This document shows positions 12,307-35,929 of a stretch of DNA of 39,803 bases, in pieces. Under the pieces are notes generated by a model. It did not search any database, was not told the origin of the DNA, and was given only the letters and a program-made list of their open reading frames with translations. Origin of the DNA: Dolichospermum sp. ST_sed8 (GTDB taxonomy: Bacteria > Cyanobacteriota > Cyanobacteriia > Cyanobacteriales > Nostocaceae). Numbering within the stretch: the stretch's first letter is position 1; the number at the start of each line of letters is the position of its first letter. The stretch spans positions 1-39,803 of the forward strand of contig JAKOGY010000014.1 of assembly GCA_028658405.1 (NCBI GenBank), in the 5' to 3' direction. The position numbers and the translations under genes are program-made.

Positions 12307-13522
12307 ATGCTAGTTTTTGAGTTTAAGATTTACGGTAAATCAGTTCAGCTAACAGCAATAGATGATGCAATTCGGACTGCACAATTCATTCGGAATAGCT
12401 GTGTTCGGCTATGGATGGATGTTTTAGATATAGGTAAAAACGACTTGCAGAAATATTGTGCTGTTTTAGCAGCTAATTTTCCATTTGCTAATGAACTCAA
12501 TTCAATGGCTAGACAAGCTAGTGCAGAAAGAGCATGGGCTTCTATCTCTCGGTTTTATGATAATTGCAAGAAGAATATTCCTGGTTTAAAGGGATATCCT
12601 CAATTCCAAAAAGATTGTCGTTGGAGTTGAATACAAAACATCAGGATGGAAGCTTGCTTCGGATTGTAAATCCATTACTTTTACTGACAAAAAAGGTATT
12701 GGTAGATTAAAAATCAAAGGGACTCGTGACCTCCACTTCTACCAAATTAACCAAATTAAACGGGTAAGATTGGTAAAACGGGCTGATGGTTATTATTGTC
12801 AATTTTGTATTGATGTCAACCGTCAAGAGAATATAGAACCATCAGGAAATACAATTGGATTGGATGTAGGATTAAAAGAATACTACACCGATTCCAATGG
12901 CGTAATGATTCAGAATCCTAAGTTTCTTCGTGAAGCGGAAAAGATTCTTAAACGTTCACAACGTCGCGTTTCTAGAAAAGTTAAAGGTTCAAAAAATCGA
13001 GGCAAAGCTAGACGGATTTTAGGGAAACACCATCTCAAAATAAGTAGGAAACGTAAAGACCATGCTGTGAAATTAGCACGGTGCGTAGTTCAGTCTAACG
13101 ACTTGATATCCTACGAAGATTTGAGAATTAAGAATTTGGTGAAAAATCATTGTTTAGCTAAGTCTATCAACGACGCATCTTGGTATCAGTTTCGTGTCTG
13201 GCTTGAATATTTTGGAAAAGTATTCAAGAGAGTCACGGTAGCGGTTAATCCGCAATACACGAGCCAAGAATGCTCTAGCTGTGGTGAAATTGTTAAAAAA
13301 TCTCTATCTACCAGAACGCATATTTGTAAGTGTGGTTGCGTGATGGATAGAGACGAAAACGCCGCTAGAAATATCCTTAGTCGAGGGTTGAGTACCGTAG
13401 GGCATACGGGAACTTTTGCGCTAGACGCAAGCAACGCTTTAGGAGATAAGACCTCTACTCAGGTTGGAGAAATTCTGTCTGAGCAAGTTATATCGTTGAT
13501 TAAAGAATCTCAGCGGCTTTAG
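12307..13522 (+). pseudogene. tnpB: Frameshifted tnpB (RNA-guided nuclease of IS200/IS605-type element)
   Basis: The first part (12307-12630) gives MLVFEFKIYGKSVQLTAIDD... and stops after KDCRWS. In another frame the protein continues without a break from about 12615 (GVEYKTSGWKLASDC) to 13522. One frameshift near 12617 thus splits an otherwise full-length TnpB of about 400 aa. The second part keeps the RuvC residues: Asp in GLDVGLKEYY, Glu in SYEDLRIKNL, zinc finger CSSCG...CKCGC, and Asp in DRDENAARNIL. No tnpA is nearby, so the element depends on a transposase elsewhere. The TnpB is probably inactive unless frameshifting rescues it. The ORF 3' end overlaps the expected guide RNA scaffold. 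Confidence 0.88.
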
Positions 13523-29239: not shown

Positions 29240-32200
29240 ATGCTAGACATTAAACGCAACCAAGAAAATAGCCAAATTACCGAAGAATCTTTAGTATTAC
29301 CCTTTAACTCCGTTGGAATTGCAGATATTCCCTTGGTAGGTGGTAAAAACGCCTCTTTAGGAGAAATGATTCAAAAACTTAGTTCCCAAGGGGTGAAAGT
29401 TCCCACGGGATTTGCGACTACTGCTTATGCTTATAGATACTTTATTACTGCGGCTGGTTTAGAAGCAAAACTGAGAAAGATTTTTGCAGAGTTAGATGTT
29501 GAAGATTTGGATAATCTGCGGGAATGTGGAAAAAAAGCCAGATCATTAATGTTAGAAACTCCATTTCCGCTACAATTACAACAAGCGATCGCTAAATCAT
29601 ATCAAAGTTTATGTCAAGAATACGGTATTAATACTGATGTAGCTGTTCGTTCTAGTGCCACAGCCGAAGATTTACCAGATGCTAGTTTTGCGGGACAACA
29701 AGAAACTTACCTGAATGTCCATGGACTCAAAAGTGTATTAGAATCTTGCCATAAATGCTTTGCTTCTATCTTCACAGACCGCGCTATTTCCTACAGACAA
29801 ATGAGAGGTTTTGATCATTTTGAAGTCGCATTATCAGTCGGTGTCCAAAAAATGGTACGGTCTGATTTAGCATCCTCTGGAGTCATGTTTTCCATTGACA
29901 CAGAAACAGGCTTTAAAAATGCAGCCTTAATTACTGCTGCTTATGGTTTAGGAGAAAACATTGTTCAAGGTGCAGTTAATCCAGATGAATATTTAGTATT
30001 TAAACCCACCTTAAAACAAGGATATAAACCCATTCTCCAAAAACGTTTGGGAACAAAAGAAATTAAAATGGTTTATGATTTGGGTGGATCAAAACTAACC
30101 AAAAATATCTCTGTTCCTCAACTTGAACGTCATCAATTTGCCCTGGATGATCAGGAAATATTACAACTAGCCCAATGGACTTGTATTATCGAAGATCATT
30201 ATTCCCAAGTCCGAGGAATGGACACACCAATGGATATTGAATGGGCAAAAGATGGGATAACTGGTGAATTATTTATTGTCCAAGCTAGACCAGAAACTGT
30301 TCAATCTCAAAAATCAAAAACTGTTCTCAAAACTTATCAACTCAAAGAAAAAAGTAAAGTTTTATTAACAGGTCGTAGCGTTGGCGAAATGATAGGTCAA
30401 GGTAAAGCTAGAGTTATTCTAGATGTACCGGAAATTAATCTCTTTCAAGCTGGAGAAGTGCTAGTTACTAACCGCACAGACCCCGACTGGGAACCGATTA
30501 TGAAAAAAGCTAGTGCGATTGTCACTAACTCTGGGGGACGGACTTGTTTTGATGGAGAGACAAAAATTCTCACCAATCAAGGTTTTATGACCATTCAGCA
30601 GATTTATGAACAAGGATATCAAGGATTATCAACTTTAGCCCTGAACACCAAAACCCATCAAATGGAATGGAAACCCATTACAGATGCCATGAAACGGACA
30701 TCTAAAACAATTGGTGTGAGTGTATCTCAAACTGGGAAAGTCACAGATAATATTCTGCGATTAACTCCTGATCATAAAATGGTTAACCTTCGGAATGGTG
30801 AATATACCAAAACTGAGATTCAAGAAATGTTAGATACTCAGGAAATGGTGCTTGTATCTCAGAATATTCCCACATTAGGTGACAACAAAAATCAAGAAGC
30901 TGATTTAGCTTATCTAATTGGGGGAATCATCACAGACGGTTCAATTTACACTAGTCGAACTCGTGGGGAAGTCCAGTTTATCCAAAAATGTTTACCAGAA
31001 AAACAAGCATTCATAACTACTATGAATGACAAAATGAATGCTGTTTATGGTAAATCTTTTACTGCTTGTGAGAAACCAGTATCTTCAGGTTATATCCGAG
31101 GAAAACAGGTAAAAGGACAAGCTACAGCTTATCGTGTTTATTCTAAAGCCATAGCTTACGACTTAAAAGAAAAAGAACAACAGATTACCCAAATTCTCCT
31201 GGAAAACACTTCAGAAGTTTCCTATCACTTTTTAGGGGGTGTAATTGATGGTGATGGTTGCTATGCTAGTAATCGCATTAATATCTATATCTCTGAAGAG
31301 AACTTACTACAAGCTGTGATTATTGCTTGTTTGAAAATCAATACAGTTCCTCAAGTTACCAGAAATCGTCATATCTACAATGTGCAAATTGTCGAAAAAT
31401 TAGAGCAAATTTTACAATATACCCAACGAGTTAAGGGAGAAGTTACTCCAAGAACTATTCAAACTCGGTTTTTCGCTGCTAATCAACTATTTGGTGACAA
31501 TGTAATCGGTCAAATTAAACTTAGAAAAGATAAAAACTTACTTATTTCCGATAAACAACTGCGGGAAACAGATCAATTTGAGGAACTTCTAAAAGGTGAT
31601 CTGCGGATGCAACGAGTTTTTAAAGTTGCAGATGCAGTAGAATCTGAAGTTTATAACATTACTGTTGCAGATCATCATAATTATCTAGTGTTTACGAGTA
31701 AATATACTCCTGTAGTTGTTTGTAACTGTCACGCGGCAATTATCGCTAGAGAAATGGGAATTCCGGCATTAGTTGGTTGTGGAAATGCAACTACAGTTTT
31801 AGAAACTGAACAGGAAATTACTGTTAGCTGTGCGGAAGGGGAAACAGGTCAAGTTTACTCAGGTTTATTAAACTTTGAAATTCAAGAATTACCATTAGAT
31901 AACTTGCCTCGTACCCGCACTAAAATCATGATGAATGTGGGTAATCCTGAAGAAGCACTAGGTTTAACCGCAATTCCTAATGATGGTGTTGGTTTAGCGA
32001 GAATGGAATTTATCATTGCTAATCATATTAAGGCACATCCTTTAGCATTATTACATTTTGATGAATTAGAAGACGAACTCGCTAAATATAAAATTAGTGA
32101 ATTAACGGCACAATATGAAGATAAGTCCGAATTTTTCATCTCTAAATTAGCACAAGGTATTGGCACAATTGCCGCAGCTTTTTATCCCAAACCTGTAATT

Positions 32201-32857
32201 GTGCGGTTGTCAGATTTCAAATCTAATGAATATGCAAACCTCTTAGGAGGTAGACAATTTGAACCTAAAGAAGAGAATCCCATGATAGGTTGGCGTGGTG
32301 CTTCTCGTTATTATGATCCTCGTTATCGGGAAGGTTTTGCGTTGGAATGTCAGGCCATGAAACGGGTACGGGAGGAAATGGGTTTAACTAATATGATTCT
32401 CATGGTTCCCTTCTGTCGCACTCCCGAAGAAGGCAAACGGGTATTAGCAGAAATGGCAAAAAATGGCTTAGTTAAGGGTGAAAATGGCTTAGAAGTTTAT
32501 GTAATGTGCGAGTTACCCAGTAACGTCTTACTAGCTGATGAATTTAGCCAAATCTTTGACGGTTTTTCCATTGGTTCTAATGATTTGACCCAATTAACGT
32601 TAGGATTAGATCGAGATTCTGAATTAGTGGCACATTTATTTGATGAACGCAATGAAGCTGTAAAACGAACAATTGCCAAAGCCATAACTACTGTCAAACA
32701 ACATGGTCGTAAAATTGGTATTTGTGGACAAGCACCCAGCGATTATCCAGAATTTGCCCGTTTCCTCGTTGAACAAGGCATAGATTCTATTAGTCTCAAC
32801 CCTGACTCTGTCATCAAGACAATGTTAGAAATTGCCGCAGCAGAAACAGGAGAATAG
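29240..32857 (+). CDS. ppsA: Phosphoenolpyruvate synthase precursor with intein
   Basis: 1205 aa as translated; 811 aa after removal of the intein (residues 436-829), which fits PpsA. It makes PEP from pyruvate and ATP (gluconeogenesis). Domains: N-terminal ATP-grasp (about 25-355: VGGKNASLGEM, VAVRSSATAEDLPDASFAGQ shortened), the phospho-His swivel domain with NSGGRT-CHAAIIAREMG, where His831 takes the phosphate, and the C-terminal PEP/pyruvate TIM barrel (VIVRLSDFKSNEYANLLGG, GSNDLTQLTLGLDRD, and Cys in GICGQAPSD). The intein interrupts the motif right before the Cys-His of the active site, so the enzyme must splice to work. A pyruvate-kinase-like gene follows. Confidence 0.96.
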   Translation: MLDIKRNQENSQITEESLVLPFNSVGIADIPLVGGKNASLGEMIQKLSSQGVKVPTGFATTAYAYRYFITAAGLEAKLRKIFAELDVEDLDNLRECGKKARSLMLETPFPLQLQQAIAKSYQSLCQEYGINTDVAVRSSATAEDLPDASFAGQQETYLNVHGLKSVLESCHKCFASIFTDRAISYRQMRGFDHFEVALSVGVQKMVRSDLASSGVMFSIDTETGFKNAALITAAYGLGENIVQGAVNPDEYLVFKPTLKQGYKPILQKRLGTKEIKMVYDLGGSKLTKNISVPQLERHQFALDDQEILQLAQWTCIIEDHYSQVRGMDTPMDIEWAKDGITGELFIVQARPETVQSQKSKTVLKTYQLKEKSKVLLTGRSVGEMIGQGKARVILDVPEINLFQAGEVLVTNRTDPDWEPIMKKASAIVTNSGGRTCFDGETKILTNQGFMTIQQIYEQGYQGLSTLALNTKTHQMEWKPITDAMKRTSKTIGVSVSQTGKVTDNILRLTPDHKMVNLRNGEYTKTEIQEMLDTQEMVLVSQNIPTLGDNKNQEADLAYLIGGIITDGSIYTSRTRGEVQFIQKCLPEKQAFITTMNDKMNAVYGKSFTACEKPVSSGYIRGKQVKGQATAYRVYSKAIAYDLKEKEQQITQILLENTSEVSYHFLGGVIDGDGCYASNRINIYISEENLLQAVIIACLKINTVPQVTRNRHIYNVQIVEKLEQILQYTQRVKGEVTPRTIQTRFFAANQLFGDNVIGQIKLRKDKNLLISDKQLRETDQFEELLKGDLRMQRVFKVADAVESEVYNITVADHHNYLVFTSKYTPVVVCNCHAAIIAREMGIPALVGCGNATTVLETEQEITVSCAEGETGQVYSGLLNFEIQELPLDNLPRTRTKIMMNVGNPEEALGLTAIPNDGVGLARMEFIIANHIKAHPLALLHFDELEDELAKYKISELTAQYEDKSEFFISKLAQGIGTIAAAFYPKPVIVRLSDFKSNEYANLLGGRQFEPKEENPMIGWRGASRYYDPRYREGFALECQAMKRVREEMGLTNMILMVPFCRTPEEGKRVLAEMAKNGLVKGENGLEVYVMCELPSNVLLADEFSQIFDGFSIGSNDLTQLTLGLDRDSELVAHLFDERNEAVKRTIAKAITTVKQHGRKIGICGQAPSDYPEFARFLVEQGIDSISLNPDSVIKTMLEIAAAETGE
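30545..31726 (+). mobile_element. Intein with LAGLIDADG endonuclease in ppsA
   Basis: 394 aa (precursor residues 436-829). Block A starts at Cys436 (CFDGETKILTNQGFMTI). Block B has TPDH (509-512). Two LAGLIDADG-type motifs are LAYLIGGIITDGS (556-568) and HFLGGVIDGDGC (663-674), both keeping the Asp. Block F is VYNITVADHHNYLVFTS, and block G is VVVCN, followed by +1 Cys830. Self-splicing joins T435 to C830 and restores SGGRTCHAAI. The residue before the terminal Asn is Cys828 rather than the usual His. It is probably a mobile homing intein; the site is in the most conserved part of the host gene. Confidence 0.93.
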
Positions 32858-32870
32858 GTAATATAGGACT

Positions 32871-33050
32871 AATATTTGATTTTGAAAAGATATGTAGGGT
32901 GTGTTAGCGACAGCGTAACGCACCGTAAAAATTGATGATACGTTACGGCTTTGCCTAACGAATATTTGATTTTGAAAAGATATGTAGGGTGTGTTAGCGA
33001 CAGCGTAACGCACCGTAAAAATTAATGGTGCGTTACGGCTTTGCCTAACG
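32871..33050. repeat. Two 90-bp tandem repeats after ppsA
   Basis: Units 32871-32960 and 32961-33050 start with AATATTTGATTTTGAAAAGA and are nearly identical; the main changes are TTGATGATA against TTAATGGTG. Inside each, GTGTTAGCGACAGCGTAACG and CGTTACGGCTTTGCCTAACG form a long imperfect hairpin. The repeats fill the gap between ppsA and the pyk-like gene. Confidence 0.9.
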
Positions 33051-33083
33051 CACCCTACGGCATCTAATTTGGAATTTACTAAT

Positions 33084-34607
33084 ATGCAATCTACTAATGT
33101 AGAGACAAAAAATACAGAATTGGATCTATCTGATTCTAATGTTTTACTTACCACATTACAACAGCTTCGTCAATCTGTTGATGAGGAAGGGAAGGTAATA
33201 TTTGAGCAGTGGAAAAAACAAATTCACCGTCAATCTTTTATTAATAGCAGTCTCAATCTTGCCTATTATCTAGCACTGAGAAGACATGATTTACGAGAAC
33301 TTCAGGCTGCTTTAATGCCTTGGGGTTTATCGTCATTAGGAAGAATAGAGGCTAAAGTTTTACCTACTTTAGATGCAGTGATTGCGACTTTAACAGCAGT
33401 TTGTCGCCCAGAACAATATTCTACCATTGTCCATCCACCAATAGAAGCATTTTTTGCAGGCGATCGCATCCTCAAACAAAATACCGAAGATTTATTTGGC
33501 AACACTCTTGATCAACGGAGAGTGAGAATTATGGTAACATTGCCAAATGAAGCCGCTACTAATTACGAATTTCTACGAGACATAATTCAGCAAGGGACAA
33601 ATTGTGTCAGAATTAATTGCGCCCATGATACCGCTGTTGAATGGTTAGCAATGATTAATCATGTTAAACAAGCAGAATTAGAATTAGGAGTTTCCTGCAA
33701 AATTCTTATGGATTTAAGTGGTCCAAAAACCCGAATTAAATTTGTGCTTACTCCCAGTTCCAAACAACGAATATTTAAAGGTGAATCTCTCTTACTTACC
33801 CATGATTTACCCCAGAATATTGATTCTGAATGTTTCCAAGCCAGTTGCACAATTCCAGAAGTATTAACAAAACTCAAAATTGGCACAATAGTTTGGATTG
33901 ATGATGGTAAAATTGGGGCTTGTGTTGAGTCAATTACATCGGAGGGAGTGTGGTTGAAAATCACCCATGCCCGGATTAAAGGTGAAAAACTCTTACCAGA
34001 AAAAGGCATCAATTTTCCTGACACTGATTTACATCTGAGTTCCCTAACTACAAAAGATCAACAGGATTTAGACTTTATTATCAATCATGCAGAACAAGTT
34101 GATATTATTGGCTATTCTTATGTACAAACTGCCCAAGATATTCAGCTTTTACAACAAGAATTAACCACAAAATTACCAGAAAATTTTCCCACACCTGCCA
34201 TAGTTGCGAAAATAGAAACACCCCTAGCTGTTAGTAATCTGCCAGAATTAATTATTCAAGCCGCAGGTAAACAACCCTTTGGGATTATGATTGCCAGAGG
34301 AGATTTGGCACTGGAAATTGGTTATCAACGTCTGGCAGAAATTCAAGAGGAAATATTATGGTTATGTGAAGCTGCCCATATACCTGTAATTTGGGCAACT
34401 CAAGTATTAGAAAATCTCGTTAAACATGGAATGCCGTCACGGGCAGAAATCACCGATGCGGCTATGTCAGAACGAGCAGAATGTGTCATGCTCAATAAGG
34501 GTGATTATATTATCGAAGCGATCGGTATTTTAGATGATGTCCTCACCAGAATGCAAGCCCATCAAGTCAAAAAAACTCCTCAGCTACGGGCTTTACATTC
34601 TTGGTAA
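33084..34607 (+). CDS. Pyruvate kinase-family protein, divergent
   Basis: 507 aa from ATG 33084 (a TTG five codons upstream is possible). Residues 1-150 form a helical extension absent in classical PK (LLTTLQQLRQSVDEEG, YLALRRHDLRELQAAL). The TIM barrel follows: RIMVTLPNEAATNYEFL, CVRINCAHDTAVEW (usual SHG replaced by AHD), ILMDLSGPKTRI, a B-domain-like insert, KDQQDLDFIINHAEQVDIIG, IVAKIETPLAV (active-site Lys), MIARGDLALEIGYQRL and PVIWATQVLENLV. The C-terminal allosteric domain is lost. It may convert PEP to pyruvate, but activity is not certain. Adjacent to ppsA, which does the opposite. Confidence 0.82.
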   Translation: MQSTNVETKNTELDLSDSNVLLTTLQQLRQSVDEEGKVIFEQWKKQIHRQSFINSSLNLAYYLALRRHDLRELQAALMPWGLSSLGRIEAKVLPTLDAVIATLTAVCRPEQYSTIVHPPIEAFFAGDRILKQNTEDLFGNTLDQRRVRIMVTLPNEAATNYEFLRDIIQQGTNCVRINCAHDTAVEWLAMINHVKQAELELGVSCKILMDLSGPKTRIKFVLTPSSKQRIFKGESLLLTHDLPQNIDSECFQASCTIPEVLTKLKIGTIVWIDDGKIGACVESITSEGVWLKITHARIKGEKLLPEKGINFPDTDLHLSSLTTKDQQDLDFIINHAEQVDIIGYSYVQTAQDIQLLQQELTTKLPENFPTPAIVAKIETPLAVSNLPELIIQAAGKQPFGIMIARGDLALEIGYQRLAEIQEEILWLCEAAHIPVIWATQVLENLVKHGMPSRAEITDAAMSERAECVMLNKGDYIIEAIGILDDVLTRMQAHQVKKTPQLRALHSW

Positions 34608-34804: not shown

Positions 34805-35929
34805 ATGAAAACACTGAAGTTTAAGCTGTACGAACACAGAAGAAATAGATACCTCAAACGGATGATTAATGCTGCTGGGGTGATCTATAACCATTGTATT
34901 GCTCTACATAAACGGTACTACCGCATCTGGAGTAAACACTTAAACTGTGCAAAACTACAGTCTCATATTGCCAAATTAAGAAAACGCAATTCTTTCTGGC
35001 AATCAATAGGTTCTCAAGCAGTGCAAGATATTTGTCAACGGATTGAGAAAGCCTACCAATTATTTTTTAAACACAATAAGAAAGGAGTTAGACCACCAGG
35101 TTTCAAGAAGGTTAAAAAATACAAATCATTCACCCTTAAACAAGCAGGTTATAAATTCTTATGTGGTAACAGAGTCAAGCTAGGAAATCGAGTTTATCAA
35201 TTTTGGAAATCTAGGGAAATAGAAGGAAAAATCAAAACATTAACGATTAAGCGCACCGCATTGGGTGAGTTATTCATGGTTGTTGTGGTTGATGATGAGT
35301 CAGAGCCAGAAATTAAATCAACGACTGGTAAAATAGCGGGGTTTGATTTTGGACTTAAAACATTTTTAACTTGCTCTGATGGAACTTTAATTGATTCTCC
35401 ACAGTTTCTTAAACAGTCTCTGAATGCTATCAAAAAAGCTAATAGAAGCCACTCTAAAAAACTAAAAGGGTCAAATAATCGTGAACGAGCTAGAAAGAAT
35501 TTAGTTCGTAAACATGAAGATATTTGCAACACAAGACGTGATTGGTTTTGGAAATTAGCCCATCAATTGACAGATAAGTTTGATGTACTATGTTTTGAAA
35601 CCTTAAACCTTAAAGGTATGCAACGTCTTTGGGGTAGAAAAATATCAGACTTAGCTTTTTGTGAATTTCTACAAATAGTAGAATGGGTAGCTAAAAAGGA
35701 ACAAAAACAAGTCATTTTTGTAGATAAGTGGTATCCATCTAGTAAAACTTGTTCTGGCTGTGGTCATGTCTTAGAAAAACTGGATTTATCGGTAAGAGAG
35801 TGGCGTTGTCCGTCTTGTCAATCAATTAATGGACGTGATGAAAACGCTGCTAAAAATATTAAAATGGTTGGGGCATCAACCATTGGCTTAGGTGATGTTA
35901 GACTGGCTACGCCAGCAATTGCTGTTTGA
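34805..35929 (+). CDS. tnpB: TnpB, RNA-guided nuclease (intact)
   Basis: 374 aa, full length. Helix-turn-helix-like N-terminal domain, WED-like beta part, then RuvC: Asp181 (GKIAGFDFGLKTF), Glu265 (VLCFETLNLKGM), zinc finger Cys316/319/335/338 (CSGCG...CPSC), and Asp345 (GRDENAAKNI). All catalytic residues are kept. TnpB cuts DNA guided by an RNA made from the element's right end, thereby keeping the element in place. No tnpA is present. It belongs to a different subgroup from the frameshifted copy at 12307-13522, as the N terminus and right-end hairpin differ. It is co-directional with rpsN, 109 bp downstream. Confidence 0.92.
   Translation: MKTLKFKLYEHRRNRYLKRMINAAGVIYNHCIALHKRYYRIWSKHLNCAKLQSHIAKLRKRNSFWQSIGSQAVQDICQRIEKAYQLFFKHNKKGVRPPGFKKVKKYKSFTLKQAGYKFLCGNRVKLGNRVYQFWKSREIEGKIKTLTIKRTALGELFMVVVVDDESEPEIKSTTGKIAGFDFGLKTFLTCSDGTLIDSPQFLKQSLNAIKKANRSHSKKLKGSNNRERARKNLVRKHEDICNTRRDWFWKLAHQLTDKFDVLCFETLNLKGMQRLWGRKISDLAFCEFLQIVEWVAKKEQKQVIFVDKWYPSSKTCSGCGHVLEKLDLSVREWRCPSCQSINGRDENAAKNIKMVGASTIGLGDVRLATPAIAV

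Follow-up and report, generated by a model that had tools for sequence, protein, structure and literature searches.

The window analysed here is a stretch of 39,803 nucleotides of contig JAKOGY010000014.1 from Dolichospermum sp. ST_sed8 (assembly GCA_028658405.1), and it carries a gene for phosphoenolpyruvate (PEP) synthase, ppsA, that is interrupted in frame by an intein. By the sequence tests described below, the insert is confirmed as a class 1 LAGLIDADG intein of 394 amino acids (aa) adjoining the phospho-His of PpsA. The penultimate residue of the intein is Cys393, at a position where no family member we examined has His. We consider it quite likely that this is a constitutively splicing, selfish class 1 homing intein, belonging to a family bound to the PpsA phospho-His site. 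Judged by its sequence, it is an ordinary, mobile intein at a remarkable location, and it probably splices constitutively.

An intein inside the phospho-His motif

PpsA is encoded by an open reading frame (ORF) of 1205 aa at 29240-32857, on the forward strand like all of the parts described below. The frame scores 1221.1 bits against TIGR01418 (PEP_synth; cut-off 739.75), and the match is split into two stretches by the insert. The N-extein (29240-30544, 435 aa, ending in GGRT) holds match positions 1-415 and the C-extein (31727-32857, 376 aa plus the stop, starting with CHAAIIAR) holds positions 413-783. The insert between them, at 30545-31726, translates without a stop into 394 aa, from C1 to N394. 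When searched alone, it exceeds the curated thresholds for Pfam Intein_splicing (39.0, cut-off 35.8), LAGLIDADG_3 (26.6, cut-off 22.5) and TIGR01445 intein_Nterm (27.2, cut-off 24.5). Relatives have identical borders, and there are genomes with the site empty.

The borders fall inside the phospho-His motif, at T435|C436 and C828-N829|C830-H831. The C-terminal Asn394, the +1 Cys830 and the +2 His831, which is the PpsA phospho-His, occupy 31724-31732. We joined the exteins with a script, which gave a protein of 811 aa with GGRTCHAAIIAR restored. The restored GGRTCHAAIIAR fits the PEP-utiliser phosphorylation-site pattern PROSITE PS00370, while the unspliced ORF has zero matches to the pattern. 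The initial annotation had described a homing-type intein in this motif with the +1 Cys directly followed by the catalytic phospho-His, and both points hold, since the class 1 intein passes the family models with exact borders at 30545-31726, the two residues can be read from the sequence and the motif is regained on joining. Its further statement, that the unspliced enzyme would be inactive, is soundly drawn.

Distribution

In a survey of 16 genomes of the genus, we found the intein in 10 and a precise empty site, GGRTCHA, in 6. A search of 388 genomes of the order found a full-length PpsA intein in 30 genomes (64-100% identity) and a related RtcB intein in 11; one genome has both, giving 40 matching genomes in all. 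A sample of 291 genomes of the phylum added one carrier outside the order (L091). We also scanned one genome per species (84,980 species) and obtained 41 loci, 26 of them cyanobacterial and 15 not, the latter from DPANN and other archaea, a betaproteobacterium, Buchananbacteria and two other bacteria. The scan patterns exclude the penultimate residue, so the scan did not select for Cys. Searches centred on four of the non-cyanobacterial loci found matches in 15 of 279 genomes of the phylum of L068 (a Nanoarchaeota metagenome-assembled genome), 1 of 194 for L077 (Thermoplasmatota), 5 of 145 for L078 (Aenigmatarchaeota) and 2 of 239 for L079 (Buchananbacteria). L077 is cut by a contig end and shows only its C-terminal border; we kept it in the counts. 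Among viral contigs, 31 stretches matched one of the only two patterns used, and none of them encodes a relative. Every search was seeded with cyanobacterial inteins and did not reach methanogen sequences.

The insertion site is identical in all 67 distinct inteins, one of which sits at the homologous site of pyruvate phosphate dikinase (PPDK). Identical inteins are counted once, L109 is omitted because it is broken into frames, and two inteins from the genus survey (L127 and L133, both VVCN|CHAA) postdate the tree set and stand outside its counts. The initial annotation had asked for a check on whether the insertion site is shared with other PEP synthase inteins; it is, archaeal ones included. 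The PPDK case, L113 (154-4005; TIGR01828, 1333 bits), comes from the phylum of L078 (Aenigmatarchaeota) and carries an intein of this family at the corresponding phospho-His position, with VSN|SHAA and no block-F His.

Some relatives show other features. A second insertion site is apparent in the ATP-binding domain of some archaeal PpsA proteins, with HN|SASFAGQQ in L109 and two TIGR01445 matches in L083. There also appear to be decaying relatives: L109 is split into separate frames, and the endonuclease of L115 is shortened and, by eye, has none of the usual acidic motifs.

In the literature we searched, we found no account of this intein, which is a weak negative as most subscription journals were outside our reach. 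As far as our searches reach, the absence of catalytic histidines in this family is little described in that literature. A Nostoc genome paper reports five intein-bearing genes in strain N6 (PMC5987646), and the PpsA intein may be among these five.

The penultimate residue

In the 67 distinct inteins, which come from cyanobacteria, DPANN archaea, candidate-phyla bacteria and others, the penultimate residue is Cys in 40, Asn in 17, Ser in 5, Glu in 2, and Gly, Trp and Lys in one each; it is never His. All 39 distinct cyanobacterial inteins of the tree set have Cys, and 27 of the 28 non-cyanobacterial inteins do not. In the window the codon is TGT (31721-31723), which is the usual one, and TGC is found in two cyanobacterial inteins (L020 = L056 and L025 = L061). 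A sequencing error behind Cys393 is excluded by these 39 occurrences with two codons. A control of 120 other inteins had His in 115, Ser in 4 and Lys in one, though the control is biased to His, as 60 were top hits of a model that rewards His-Asn and 60 were picked by hand from the listed rows.

To place the cyanobacterial inteins, we used two trees, a quick one with 78 rows and a careful one with 52, leaving the two last intein columns out of both. The 26 rows left out of the careful tree are L077, the long-branch L108 and L115, and others removed to thin near relatives. In both trees the cyanobacterial inteins are one clade (100/99 in the careful tree) beside seven DPANN rows, six with Asn and one with Cys; the careful tree joins the two groups at a 100/100 node. 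Further archaeal and other rows fall outside this node. Placing all non-cyanobacterial rows in one clade is rejected by the approximately unbiased (AU) test, if marginally (p-AU 0.037). We use DPANN for rows labelled as Nanoarchaeota, Woesearchaeota, Pacearchaeota or Forterrea; in the NCBI taxonomy, the kingdom Nanobdellati includes Forterrea and Woesearchaeota.

Because the cyanobacterial clade is nested in archaeal diversity and its neighbours mostly have Asn, Cys was most likely derived from Asn, first in the ancestor of the cyanobacterial clade and a second time in L073, a Woesearchaeote. The initial annotation had described a Cys in place of the penultimate His. The Cys is there, in 39 of 39, while its derivation from His probably has the direction wrong: a replacement of His by Cys in this lineage is not favoured, with His in 0 of 67 and Asn in 6 of the 7 nearest neighbours. 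With Asn, Cys, Ser, Glu, Lys, Gly or Trp at this position, and with or without the block-F His, the family forms a natural set of variants for studying Asn cyclisation where the usual histidines are missing. Inteins of archaeal type have also likely passed into cyanobacteria here, probably by a single entry from an archaeal-type donor if the tree is right.

Mobility and selection

We compared divergence over the 91 pairs formed by 14 genomes of the window's family that carry the intein. The ten codons preceding the insertion showed 0.38 synonymous differences per site and the ten following it 0.42, against 0.18 for the initial 50 codons of the intein and 0.16 for its final 44; inner intein windows ranged from 0.12 to 0.38. 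Over the whole regions, synonymous divergence (dS) was 0.18-0.33 for the intein against 0.67-0.78 for the exteins. The ratio of nonsynonymous to synonymous divergence (dN/dS) was 0.15-0.23 for the intein, 0.04-0.09 for the exteins and 0.153 for the endonuclease domain. From these values, the intein most likely moved among these hosts after they had diverged, taking little of its flanking DNA along, and selection maintains the endonuclease. The endonuclease would copy the intein into empty ppsA alleles; the spread is seen in the comparison and the activity of the enzyme is presumed. Between domains of life, inteins are clearly more alike than their exteins in L070 (57 vs 44% identity) and in the PPDK host L113 (41 vs 27-30%).

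Architecture and class

The N-terminal splicing region (approximately residues 1-108, 30545-30868) has the nucleophile Cys1 in block A and is matched by TIGR01445 over residues 1-79. Block B is TPDH, from T74 to H77 (30764-30775); both end residues are invariant in an alignment of 18 rows, and their role is taken from PMC4031507. The LAGLIDADG homing endonuclease domain spans approximately residues 115-350 (30887-31594), with the PF14528 match, above its cut-off, at residues 228-284. By reading, we located a first LAGLIDADG-type motif at residues 121-133 (LAYLIGGIITDGS, 30905-30943), with D131 and G132 invariant in the 18 rows, and a second at residues 226-238 (SYHFLGGVIDGDG, 31220-31258), with D235, G236 and G238 invariant. 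Both contain acidic residues, in GGIITDG and GGVIDGDG. The C-terminal splicing region (approximately residues 351-394, 31595-31726) holds blocks F and G as placed from the alignment. Block F is VYNITVADHHNYLV (31649-31690), in which we assigned Asn371 as F:4, His378 as F:13 and His377 as an extra residue by eye.

The intein has what defines class 1: a Cys or Ser nucleophile at position 1, a C-terminal Asn followed by Cys, Ser or Thr at +1, and TxxH in block B (T74-P-D-H77). C1 and N394 are invariant in the 18-row alignment, and C1, N394 and the +1 Cys are invariant in a 32-row alignment; across the 67 inteins, 63 have Cys and 4 have Ser at +1. Two optional features of the class depart from the usual, namely the penultimate His (here Cys393) and the F:4 residue, which is most commonly Asp, then Cys and Trp (here Asn371). 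Asn at F:4 is found in 62 of the 67 when the position is set by its distance from the C-terminus; the other five have a longer block F, in which we read, by eye, Asp for L108 and Asn for the remaining four. Asn at F:4 is also common to 11 of 11 RtcB inteins. Class 3 (WCT) inteins have Trp at B:12, Cys at F:4, Thr at G:5 and no nucleophile at position 1, and at these places the window's intein has, by eye, M79, N371, V392 and C1. Its sporadic presence, the empty sites and the horizontal spread are those of a homing intein, and the insertion at GGxT|CHAA of PpsA is the PEP synthase phospho-His site.

Splicing and alternative explanations

On the reading we prefer, Cys1 would form the N-terminal thioester with the help of T74 and H77 of block B, following the family rules in PMC4031507. 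The +1 Cys would then take over the N-extein, Asn394 would cyclise, aided mainly by the block-F His378 and perhaps also by His377, and ligation would give the 811-aa PpsA with its phospho-His motif regained. His378 is a likely helper, as the F:13 His is present in 64 of the 67 inteins, and His377 is present in 38 of 39 cyanobacterial rows. Compensation for the missing penultimate His by the extra His377 was considered and is not tight, since L031 (FHNY) and L073 (DNHTY) have the Cys without His377. The penultimate position itself would be non-catalytic, with His lost or never present at the base of the family, followed by drift, mostly to Asn, and to Cys once at the cyanobacterial base and again in one Woesearchaeote. 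Splicing would probably be constitutive.

The initial annotation had suggested that a non-His penultimate residue may make splicing slow, which does not follow by itself. About 5% of functional inteins have no penultimate His, and restoring it helps some and impairs others (PMC4031507); in a phage recombination directionality factor (RDF) intein with Gly, the change to His led to build-up of precursor (PMC5050341). Another possibility is that splicing is slow or in part defective, with an inefficient step 3, and that the host tolerates this because it seldom needs PpsA. The presence of a divergent intein-free PpsA-like gene in the same genome (L086) would agree with it. Against this, both host and intein are under purifying selection by the dN/dS values above, and all 30 carriers of the PpsA intein from the order search have an uninterrupted frame. 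We regard slow or defective splicing as quite improbable. The annotation had also suggested that splicing could be redox-sensitive and link gluconeogenesis to redox state. In such a switch Cys393 would form a disulfide with the +1 Cys or Cys1 when oxidised, halting splicing and tying the supply of PpsA to redox. Cys in all 39 distinct cyanobacterial inteins speaks for it, and control by a disulfide is known in M. smegmatis DnaBi1, where the catalytic Cys118 pairs with Cys48 (PMC6195587). However, the fixation of Cys is unremarkable. On the PpsA-site part of the quick tree we count 9 changes of the penultimate residue and none within cyanobacteria, where 1.9-2.3 changes are expected and the probability of none is 0.10-0.15; of the 235 columns that change at least 8 times outside cyanobacteria, 31 are likewise constant inside. 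A special constraint on Cys393 does not emerge from this, and with fixation within expectation there is no good reason to invoke redox sensing. In addition, 27 of 28 non-cyanobacterial inteins do without the Cys, and the single residue between the cysteines in CNC makes for strained disulfide geometry. Beyond the presence of the Cys, the proposal is unsupported and we hold it to be very improbable; it gives way to the picture of a family of inteins that targets the phospho-His of PEP-using dikinases.

The remaining alternative is that the host helps, with the indispensable PpsA phospho-His at +2 replacing the penultimate His in Asn cyclisation. This His is present in 67 of 67, and although most rows were cut with a pattern that requires it, no complete locus was dropped for lacking it. 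L113, L114 and L115, which have Ser at +1, have neither the penultimate nor the F:13 His (Lys replaces the latter), and the +2 His is the only one near their C-terminal bond in sequence. A polarizable neighbouring C-extein residue has been proposed to destabilise the scissile bond (PMC4031507), and the Asn codons AAT and AAC are one base from His, yet none of the 67 has His. On the other hand, the +2 His is invariant in PpsA, which makes an internal test impossible, and among the 120 controls 33 have a +2 His and all 33 keep the penultimate His, so a +2 His alone is insufficient to free the position. A general rule of that kind finds no support in this control, which is biased and non-independent: the 33 rows are in effect two cases, 32 of the CH[MQS]L type (one member, L134, is DnaX by family search) and L250. 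We find host assistance unlikely for the window's intein. That the whole family gave up the penultimate His, and L113-L115 the block-F His too, because the host's +2 phospho-His aids release seems to us quite unlikely; if true, the intein would exploit the very residue blocked by its insertion.

Several points weigh against the constitutively splicing homing intein that we favour. The F:13 His is dispensable in part of the family, as L113-L115 have Lys; if these members splice, they have to do so with neither His. Cysteines 1, 393 and +1 are near each other and allow oxidation chemically. The AU rejection is marginal. Intein codons 200-250 and 300-350, at 0.33 and 0.38, are near the extein level of synonymous divergence. 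In most other DPANN relatives the exteins are more alike than the inteins, so transfer of the whole gene is also possible there. Finally, distant or methanogen members, or groups beyond our searches, may differ.

Comparison with known inteins

The PpsA intein of Crocosphaera watsonii WH 8501 (L053) is 75% identical, at the same site and with VVVCN|CHAA, so that the two differ by ordinary divergence only. It is presumably the Crocosphaera watsonii PEP synthase intein entered in InBase as 'Cwa PEP'. The Methanocaldococcus jannaschii PEP synthase intein (Mja PEP) shares the host enzyme and has a penultimate Phe instead of Cys.

The nearest other family we found is that of the RtcB inteins of Cyanobacteriales (L032-L042), at 25-29% identity over the full length. 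They are alike in the F:4 Asn (11 of 11) and in a +1 Cys close to a host histidine, and differ in the penultimate His (11 of 11), in Ser or Ala at +2, and in host and site. The insertion is at C|CSHGAG, or C|CAHGSG in L040, and the His beside it is, we assume, the guanylylated His of RtcB. L032 matches PF01139 (RtcB) and also NF052663, an NCBIfam model for RtcB proteins that contain inteins (795 bits, below the cut-off of 1050), so such inteins are already known. A second intein lies upstream, at a GVDIGC site, in the RtcB loci L033, L037 and L040.

Split DnaE inteins are cyanobacterial too, and have penultimate Ser in the four control rows with CFN at +1 to +3, which we take to be DnaE. They differ from the PpsA intein in being split, in having no endonuclease and in their host. 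A study of Ssp DnaE by Sun from 2005 carries the words 'without the penultimate histidine' in its title. The Mycobacteriophage Bethlehem RDF intein is class 1 with a penultimate Gly and splices well (PMC5050341), with a different host, residue and lineage. M. smegmatis DnaBi1 resembles the PpsA intein in having an extra Cys able to pair with a catalytic Cys (PMC6195587), but it is class 3 and its redox control was shown by experiment.

Genomic surroundings

Directly downstream of ppsA, at 33069-34607, is a pyruvate kinase-like gene (PRK14725, 572.5 bits, cut-off 642), so enzymes of opposite direction are neighbours here. Between the two genes, at 32880-33065, we noticed by eye two near-identical direct repeats (tgtagggtgtgttagcgacagcgtaacgcaccgtaaaaatt). 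Two ORFs of the window, at 12770-13522 and 34805-35929, resemble IS200/IS605-type TnpB by eye.

Elsewhere in the same genome, the PpsA-like gene mentioned above (L086, contig C199) has GGLTSHGAIL and scores 385 bits, below the TIGR01418 cut-off of 739.75. On contig C405 there is a PurL intein ending in THN|C, at a locus that is cut short (L002; PRK01213, 537 bits, cut-off 648). TIGR01443 has 8 matches in the window's genome.
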